NCBI GenBank assembly: GCA_017640665.1
Contig: JAEPQE010000003.1
Location: 62,001-126,000, forward strand
Length of the DNA stretch: 64,000 nt
Direction: 5' to 3'
DNA from: Balneolaceae bacterium
Lineage (GTDB): Bacteria; Bacteroidota; Rhodothermia; Balneolales; Balneolaceae
The notes beneath the pieces are model-generated. The model searched no databases, was not told the DNA's origin, and saw only the letters and a list, made by a program, of their open reading frames with translations. Positions 12,844 through 14,820 of the stretch are shown here, piece by piece (the stretch's first letter is position 1; each line of letters starts with the position of its first letter). The position numbers were made by a program, and so were the translations under genes.

Positions 12844-13944
12844 CTAGGTTGACACTTTTACAATACCAAAGCCAATGAGTTCTTTAAGAATGTCCATTGC
12901 TTTTGCTTCCAATTGATTCGATTCAAATGAAATATATCCGATATCTCTAAAATTAGTTGGGAAAGAAACATTAGCTTCTTTCATTATTACGATTCTATTA
13001 TCATACAAATAACCAGAAGCACCTAGTTCAAAGACTACATTTTCACTAGGTCTCCAAAGTTCATTTCCATCTTTGTCTTTAAACTCTTCGTCTGCAGAAA
13101 ATATTAAAATAGCACAATTACAGCTCTCCATTATTTCTCTGACTTTTGAACTAATTGGTCTGCCCAGATTAGGTTCATCAATAGCTACTTTATAAGGAAT
13201 TTTAAATTGATCTAAAATTTTCTTTAGCTGTTCAAGTGGTTTTTTACTCTTACCGTGAGCAATAAAAATACCTTGTCCTAGCTTAGTTTCTCTATTATTG
13301 AAGTTTTCTTCAAGACTATCTTCCTCAATTGATTTTTCTAATCCTTGTACACCTTCAGAAGGTTCGGGTTGATTTATGCTGGAAATATCTTTGATTGATT
13401 CAGATTCATTCTTTGGTGCATTAATTTCAGACTGAATAAATTTTTTAAGTTCATCAGTATTAAAACTAATCCTTGTTTCATTTCCTTTTCTTCCAGCAAT
13501 TAGGTTTCCTATTTCTGAACCTACAATTATGTGAAAAAAACAAACTGCTTGATCTTTTAAAACTTTATCTGATTCACTTGCTTCAGATTTGAAATGGTCA
13601 AACCAATGTACAGCTACATCTGTAGTAGTAAATGAATCTTCATTTCTATGTGCAGCTCGTTCAACAATAGAATTATATGCAGGTATTTTAGAAATTATTC
13701 TTCTGCAACCCTCAGAAATCTTATTTCTATTTGTAAAGTACTCTCTTCCAAAAGGTGTCAATTTTAAATTTTCTGAGTCTTCGATAACACCCCAGTATTT
13801 GAAGGCTGTTAGTTTTCTTCCATCTAGGCGTTTACTTTCGAGAACAGTTTTAGCTTCTGAAACCGAAGCACCCGTAGGTTTAGTCTTTAAATAGTTAGAG
13901 ATAATTTCTACGTCTTCTAATGTTGTTCTAATAGGTAAACTCAT
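12844..13944 (-). CDS. TIR-like (CAP12/PF10137-type) protein with N-terminal winged-helix region
   Basis: 366 residues in three parts. Residues 1-170 resemble two tandem winged-helix units (a GASVSEAKTVL...LTPFGREYF pattern, then TTTDVAVHWFDHFK). Residues 170-222 are an acidic, polar linker. Residues 225-340 match the TIR-like fold formerly called predicted nucleotide-binding: GIFIAHGKSKKPLEQLKKIL, DEPNLGRPISSKV, NCAILIFSADE, and ENVVFELGASG, whose Glu306 is the likely catalytic residue. Related domains are NAD-degrading effectors in CBASS/Pycsar immunity, but no cyclase is encoded nearby. Base composition is clearly AT-richer than polA and pepF, suggesting transfer. The family call is by motif recognition. 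Confidence 0.75.
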   Translation of the reverse strand: MSLPIRTTLEDVEIISNYLKTKPTGASVSEAKTVLESKRLDGRKLTAFKYWGVIEDSENLKLTPFGREYFTNRNKISEGCRRIISKIPAYNSIVERAAHRNEDSFTTTDVAVHWFDHFKSEASESDKVLKDQAVCFFHIIVGSEIGNLIAGRKGNETRISFNTDELKKFIQSEINAPKNESESIKDISSINQPEPSEGVQGLEKSIEEDSLEENFNNRETKLGQGIFIAHGKSKKPLEQLKKILDQFKIPYKVAIDEPNLGRPISSKVREIMESCNCAILIFSADEEFKDKDGNELWRPSENVVFELGASGYLYDNRIVIMKEANVSFPTNFRDIGYISFESNQLEAKAMDILKELIGFGIVKVST

Positions 13945-14059: not shown

Positions 14060-14223
14060 ATTCTCCCTCTGAGTTCAAACAGGTTTGAACTCGGTCTCCC
14101 CCCGAGGGGAGACAGTTGAGGTGCTGATCTGAAATTTGAATAGTTAAGAAATTAAAGGCTACACGTGTCCCTCCTCGGGGAGGCACAGATTCATTCGCTT
14201 GCGAATGGGTCAGGGAGAGGAAG
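14060..14223. repeat. Multi-hairpin repeat, copy A (left of the DUF559 gene)
   Basis: Four palindromes in a row: gagttcaaac/gtttgaactc (14071-14092), gtctcccc/ggggagac (14094-14113), cctcc/ggagg (14170-14183) and cattcgc/gcgaatg (14192-14207). The ends ttctccctct and agggagaggaa are approximately inverted copies of each other. Copy B at 14671-14820 has the same order of hairpins in the same orientation. The AT-rich middle of A is longer than that of B. This also fills most of the gene-free stretch 13945-14286. Confidence 0.85.
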
Positions 14224-14286
14224 ATTTGGGAAAAAACTTTGTAAGGAACCCCATTCACTCCGGTCTAACTTCGAAAAGACCAACCT

Positions 14287-14685
14287 ATGGAAGTAGACAA
14301 AACCAACAACTTTGGCTAAAACACCAATCTTAAAGAGCTAGCCGCGATCAACAGAAAGAAAGCTACCAAAGCAGAAGCCTGTTTATGGAAATATGCACTC
14401 TCCAAAAAGCAAACGGGTCACACCTTCAAAAGACAAAGACCAGTTCTACGTTATATCGCTGATTTTATGTGTCAGGAGTTAAAACTGATTATCGAGGTGG
14501 ATGGAAGTTCGCATAATCAGTTAGATGTAAGAATCAAAGACCTGAAAAGACAGATGGAATTGGAAGACGTTGGATTTACTGTGTTAAGATTCACGGATGA
14601 AGAGGTATTGGAGAATATGGATGATGTTAAGCGGGTAATTTCGGATACCCTAGTTGATTTGGTAACCCGTGAATCCTCTCTCTGA
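14287..14685 (+). pseudogene. DUF559 (Vsr/MutH-like fold) endonuclease gene with an in-frame stop
   Basis: Read straight through, this frame gives a complete ~132-residue DUF559 protein. Codon 11 is TAA (14317-14319). It follows NNFG, at a place where I expect Tyr (NNFGY), so TAC/TAT to TAA by one substitution is the likely event. After the stop come LKELAAINRKKATKAEACLW, KKQTGHTFKRQRPV, the nuclease motif ADFMCQELKLIIEVDGSSH and VLRFTDEEVL. The later ATG at 14467 would lose the N-terminal half of the fold, so I call it a pseudogene. Related enzymes are PD-(D/E)XK-like nucleases of unclear role. Confidence 0.8.
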
Positions 14686-14820
14686 AATCAAACAAGTTTG
14701 ATTTCTGTCTCTCCCCAAGGAGAGACAGTGGGAGGCTTTGAGTTTATGTGGGGTTAAAAATGTCCCTCTTGGGGGAGGGGTAGATTCATTCGCTTGCAAA
14801 TGGATCAGGTAGAGGAATCT
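14671..14820. repeat. Multi-hairpin repeat, copy B (right of the DUF559 gene)
   Basis: Same hairpin order as copy A: gaaatcaaac/gtttgatttc (14684-14705), tgtctctcc/ggagagaca (14706-14727), ccctc/gaggg (14764-14779) and cattcgc/gcaaatg (14787-14802, one mismatch). In the first two stems the bases differ from copy A on both arms, so pairing is kept by paired changes. Ends gaatcctctctctg and caggtagaggaatc are near-inverted copies. Confidence 0.85.

Follow-up and report, generated by a model that had tools for sequence, protein, structure and literature searches.

A DUF559 nuclease gene bracketed by whalefall-1 palindromic repeats in a Balneolaceae bacterium suggests a REPtron-like cassette

Within the 64,000-nucleotide stretch of DNA from a marine Balneolaceae bacterium analysed here (the window), we propose, with a probability of roughly 0.7, that one locus represents a REPtron-like cassette in which a DUF559 gene is located between two direct copies of its partner palindromic repeat, with a Vsr-type, non-HUH nuclease as the enzyme. 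REPtrons are tnpA-REP (RAYT) genes flanked by REP/BIME/REPIN palindromes (PMC6006769, PMC3733652). Both repeat copies at the locus are inverted pairs of units that an Rfam scan assigns to RF01762, whalefall-1 (Table 1), and all four units exceed the gathering score of 37 bits (39.6-73.4). The initial annotation of the window had described direct copies at 14060-14223 and 14671-14820 with four hairpins in the same order and paired changes in the stems; copies and hairpins were found just as described. When segments of identical geometry were moved across the 64 kb, the locus obtained the highest direct-repeat score of the 417 placements (75; 39 for the runner-up at a separate place), and the observation of a DUF559 gene between repeats is therefore real and beyond chance.

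The DUF559 frame was said to receive its stop codon from copy B, and the TGA at 14683-14685 indeed falls within this copy. The same layout is found in G002, a congener of the window genome (G000), as well as in G018 and G028, where the DUF559 frame also terminates with ...CCCTYTGA within the repeat tail. The PF04480 match of the window gene compares with a Pfam gathering score of 20.6, and in the DUF559 alignment the D, E and D columns of the conserved D...E-x-D core are invariant. An in-frame TAA at 14317-14319, codon 11 from the ATG at 14287, indicates that the gene in the window is probably broken or has an unusual start.

Table 1. Features of the DUF559 locus, with positions counted along the window
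Feature	Position	Strand	Evidence
whalefall-1 unit, alpha type (copy A, left; H1, H2, tail leftward)	14060..14115	-	RF01762 66.4 bits and unit alignment
whalefall-1 unit, beta type (copy A, right; H1, H2, tail rightward)	14165..14222	+	RF01762 51 bits
promoter-like motif TTTGTAAGGA-N15-GTCTAAC	14238..14269	+	pattern search: 11 genome sites, 0 reversed controls
DUF559 (PF04480) frame; domain 14329-14646	14287..14685	+	translation, Pfam 102 bits
whalefall-1 unit, alpha type (copy B, left; overlaps DUF559 frame end)	14673..14728	-	RF01762 73.4 bits
whalefall-1 unit, beta type (copy B, right)	14760..14817	+	RF01762 39.6 bits

The whalefall-1 unit consists of a hairpin H1 (GTCTCCC-loop-GGGAGAC or GTCCCTC-loop-GAGGGAC), a hairpin H2 with a highly variable stem and a purine-rich tail, which reads AGAGGGAGGAC in alpha and AGGGAGAGGAC in beta units. 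The window genome contains 42 matches, 34 of them over the gathering score, and its congener G002 contains 60 units; only two units, both weak, occur in G001. Most units in the window genome form solo elements of about 140 bp in the order alpha(+), about 30 bp, beta(-), with the tails inward. These elements end CTGTC...GACAG and are scattered in intergenic DNA, and a few elements are of the tail-outward type that is seen beside the DUF559 gene. Three solo elements within one 9.5-kb stretch are missing at the orthologous intergenic sites of G002, and the one site of the three that is cleanly readable in G001 is likewise empty. Empty sites in relatives, which the initial annotation had named as a check, thus exist, and solo elements are present or absent between species. 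No target-site duplication was readable at these empty sites, where the intergenic DNA of the congener is too diverged.

Rfam files RF01762 as an sRNA known from whale-fall metagenomes only, and Weinberg et al. (2010) scored whalefall-1 as very likely RNA (PMC2864571). The units described here have the same sequence and structure, but they belong to a dispersed inverted-pair repeat of Balneolaceae that is linked to DUF559. The repeat might still be a functional small RNA, or a terminator or processing element of transcripts, and the neighbouring DUF559 gene incidental. The Rfam listing and the scoring by Weinberg et al. speak for this explanation and paired changes are compatible with RNA; however, 42-60 dispersed inverted-pair copies together with presence and absence between congeners are repeat-like and atypical for an sRNA gene, the link to DUF559 recurs far over chance, and hairpin repeats unrelated to whalefall-1 surround other DUF559 genes (see below). 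We therefore regard this explanation as very improbable. At the level of sequence, the number of copies and their arrangement in inverted pairs point to a DNA repeat rather than an sRNA, and the whalefall-1 "RNA" is probably the repeat of the DUF559 system.

The proposal that the fold is under selection agrees with the many compensatory changes that appear when 24 solo elements are aligned. Counted on a hand-written five-helix structure, which was derived from the consensus and from single folds, pairing cells amounted to 89.3% in these elements versus 78.8% in shuffles, and changes on both sides were present in 22 of 48 pairs. Double-change cells numbered 133, compared with 49.9 ± 6.5 in shuffled alignments and 6-43 in slid controls. 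The covariation score was 0.320 (0.128 when shuffled), and single-strand folding yielded z-scores of -5.7 to -10.4. Template switching between the arms could contribute to this covariation. That the covariation is mainly mutational in this way and not selected, with hairpin-rich repeats merely piling up in intergenic DNA, appears extremely improbable to us. Template switching would also yield H2 stems that are varied yet paired (22 distinct H2-alpha stems exist among the 24 solo elements), but the tails, the loops and the order of the hairpins have been conserved while the stems changed, and DUF559 brackets recur in many phyla, with few hairpins at control genes.

The repeats cluster next to DUF559 genes, as the initial annotation had led us to look for. 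Among 59 genomes in which RF01762 and PF04480 were listed, a DUF559 gene lies within 500 bp of a whalefall-1 unit in 9 genomes, where random placement predicts 0.33 (P ~6e-15, with shared ancestry ignored). This adjacency is present in 9 of the 10 genomes in which a DUF559 gene coexists with two or more units; G030 is the sole genome with two units and DUF559 genes that lacks it. When only strong matches were considered and loci were collapsed by location, three independent loci were counted (P ~3e-5), a statistic that omits weak whalefall-1 hits at DUF559 genes of other clades (G021, G001 and G032). These weak hits accompany other DUF559 clades and are probably related palindromes rather than members of the same family. 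One clade (97/90) unites the five DUF559 proteins whose genes are strongly flanked and that are little diverged, and the G005 protein is placed nearby. Whalefall-1 does not occur genome-wide without a link to DUF559. Although solo copies prevail, as they do in REP families, a DUF559 gene lies among the copies in almost all genomes that contain several. In the literature searched, we found no earlier report of a connection between DUF559 and palindromic repeats, although one may exist as a preprint or in a subscription journal.

Among solved structures, 3hrl (E 8.7e-30) and the I-Bth0305I catalytic domain (4.9e-7) are closest to the DUF559 protein by sequence. The G018 protein, modelled with AlphaFold (pLDDT 90), matches 3hrl, I-Bth0305I and, more weakly, Vsr, and DUF559 shares both the predicted fold and distant sequence similarity with I-Bth0305I (PDB 3r3p) and Vsr (1vsr). 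I-Bth0305I is an intron-encoded homing endonuclease and Vsr is a mismatch-repair nickase. To our knowledge, neither of them is bracketed by palindromic repeats. Judged by its predicted fold, DUF559 belongs with the Vsr-group nucleases rather than with the HUH enzymes, which places the system outside the RAYT family, though its layout is that of a REPtron (PMC6006769). No viral contigs with close relatives of the DUF559 nuclease were confirmed. A Y1 transposase as a neighbour of whalefall-1 was considered and rejected: the window genome has two Y1_Tnp genes and both are away from the units.

The cassette is located between polA and a pepF-like gene in both the window genome and G002; in G001, these two genes are on separate contigs. 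Since the position is the same in the two former genomes, cassettes are not highly mobile within the genus. Between polA and the cassette, the window contains a gene for a CAP12/Pycsar-effector TIR-domain protein (12844-13944, minus strand) that is close to the PADLOC candidate PDC-S35. In G002, polA is separated from the cassette by only ~0.2 kb, and the interval with the TIR protein has therefore been gained or lost. At another site, syntenic between two congeners and with ~90% identity on both sides, G018 carries repeat-DUF559-repeat and G028 a single repeat. The whole cassette is thus present or absent at one site, which fits the mobile or retained unit that had been postulated. The alignments of the two genomes overlap by 180 bp of G028, corresponding to the repeat length, and the net difference consists of the DUF559 gene and one repeat. 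The direct repeats thus delimit a unit that comes or goes in one piece. The unit may have entered a solo repeat in G018, or a cassette may have collapsed through recombination in G028; with two genomes, either direction fits.

A single repeat at the site in G028 is also what a gene-free allele of a homing cassette would look like. DUF559 would then be a free-standing homing endonuclease that targets the repeat and cuts incoming or resident copies without the gene, the break being repaired from the cassette copy; solo repeats would be targets or recombination-collapsed cassettes that are not mobilised by DUF559. The nearest characterised relative by sequence and predicted fold, I-Bth0305I, is indeed a homing enzyme. 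However, in classical homing the target is interrupted by the gene, but here an intact repeat is found on either side, and the many solo copies with their conserved, covarying structure would be left unexplained. We consider homing to be unlikely.

Other small DUF559 genes in the window genome are bracketed by different direct repeats, and different DUF559 clades pair with different repeats. The similarity of upstream and downstream DNA was evaluated against a cross-pair null for 67 small DUF559 genes from 21 genomes of the family, of which 41 were over the 95% point and 35 over the 99% point. A scan of 84,980 species with one genome each provided a cross-phyla set of 80 loci. Of the 73 testable loci, 29 surpassed the cross-pair null at its 99% point, and 24 of these were also over a stricter 99% point obtained from other places in the same loci. 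Bracketed loci of this set include Bacteroidota, a cyanobacterium, Chlorobiota, Gracilibacteria, Calditrichaeota, Neomarinimicrobiota and Pelosinus. At this sensitivity, a clear bracket is absent in about half of the DUF559 genes tested. Hairpins per 200 bp reach 0.87 directly upstream and 1.11 directly downstream of DUF559 in the family (0.80 and 0.69, respectively, across phyla), and the density falls to ~0.03-0.16 beyond 400-600 bp; the flanks of control genes contain 0.17 and 0.23.

Copy numbers of the bracketing repeats differ between loci. The repeat that brackets locus L091 has ~24 copies in G018 and ~25 in G028; a multi-copy repeat for every DUF559 gene was dismissed, as the bracket repeat of locus L067 is represented by two good copies only. 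At one place in G028 (L255, C33:414857-415614), two copies of a DUF559-type repeat flank an unrelated, membrane-protein-like frame of 145 residues and no DUF559 gene, which is either a counterexample or the outcome of two separate insertions.

The initial comparison with the logic of RAYT/REP systems, combined with an unrelated enzyme, holds in both parts: the layout matches, and the enzyme is of the Vsr type by sequence and predicted fold. As in REPtrons, a single enzyme gene is flanked by its own repeat, dispersed solo repeats occur in inverted pairs, several repeat families exist per genome, each with its own gene, and the repeats are patchy across species. Unlike REPtrons with their HUH Y1 transposase, the DUF559 system uses a Vsr-type nuclease, no GTAG-type tag was found, and the repeat unit comprises two hairpins and a purine-rich tail. 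CGTC-tagged REPs have been reported without a dedicated transposase (PMC3733652). They are likewise dispersed inverted-pair palindromes, and reversed whalefall-1 units often start with CGTCC. Canonical CGTC REPs, however, are composed of CGTCAT and a stem of 8-9 bp, whereas whalefall-1 has two hairpins and a long tail. As a general partner of DUF559, CGTC-tagged REPs were rejected, with 3 near hits in 147 loci and no clear enrichment.

In the REPtron-like cassette that we favour, the DUF559 nuclease would recognise the hairpins that its own repeat forms in single-stranded DNA and would nick or cut near the hairpin foot. Host replication, repair or recombination could then copy the repeat elsewhere or put the gene into a solo repeat, and recombination between the direct copies could collapse the cassette to a solo repeat. 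DUF559, a widespread Pfam family of unknown function, would gain a genomic partner and a testable substrate, and an Rfam 'RNA', whalefall-1, would be reinterpreted as part of a dispersed repeat. The findings also suggest that REP-like repeat systems have multiple origins with different nucleases.

The promoter-like motif upstream of the DUF559 frame has the general form TTTGTAAGGA-N13-18-GTCTWAC in Balneolaceae. Its core is located upstream of 17 of the 67 small DUF559 genes, compared with 0.16 expected. The exact pattern has 11, 8 and 7 sites in G000, G001 and G002, with no reversed-control hits, and is present in 11 of 34 genomes searched. Genes downstream of the motif include comM (YifB), comEC, radC, ssb, DUF559 and genes for GIY-YIG nucleases, GxxExxY and four-helix-bundle proteins. 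In G018, several Y1-family transposases are also found downstream of the motif, for which membership in either RAYT or IS200 would fit. RAYTs belong to the Y1-family transposases. Repeat brackets are absent at motif-bearing genes that encode neither nucleases nor transposases (comM, radC, ssb and the four-helix genes), and the bracket is therefore not a by-product of the motif. From the identity of these genes, they probably represent a competence-type regulon that includes mobile-type nucleases, and the motif suggests expression of DUF559 during DNA uptake. DUF559 would be made along with the competence machinery, while imported DNA is single-stranded. At title level, no link of REP or RAYT proteins with competence was evident in the literature searched.

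A broader reading is that DUF559, Y1-family transposases, GIY-YIG nucleases and perhaps GxxExxY belong to one natural-competence regulon and that palindromic repeats spread because they are processed as folded single strands during uptake. We put this forward tentatively and consider it rather doubtful at present. If it were true, REP-like elements would be parasites or partners of natural transformation, and DUF559 would constitute a second, independently evolved class of repeat-partner enzymes in many phyla. With a motif common to DUF559, Y1-family transposases and competence genes, when and how the repeats spread is now directly testable. Two further arrangements of the motif were observed. 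A tandem pair of DUF559 genes within the same genome (L070, 2420-3331) has a TTTGTAAGGA-type motif or a variant of it upstream, and the second gene of the pair is diverged. In G001, the motif occurs twice in identical form, 253 bp apart, 5' of a GxxExxY gene (L274 and L277, C3:321716-322000).
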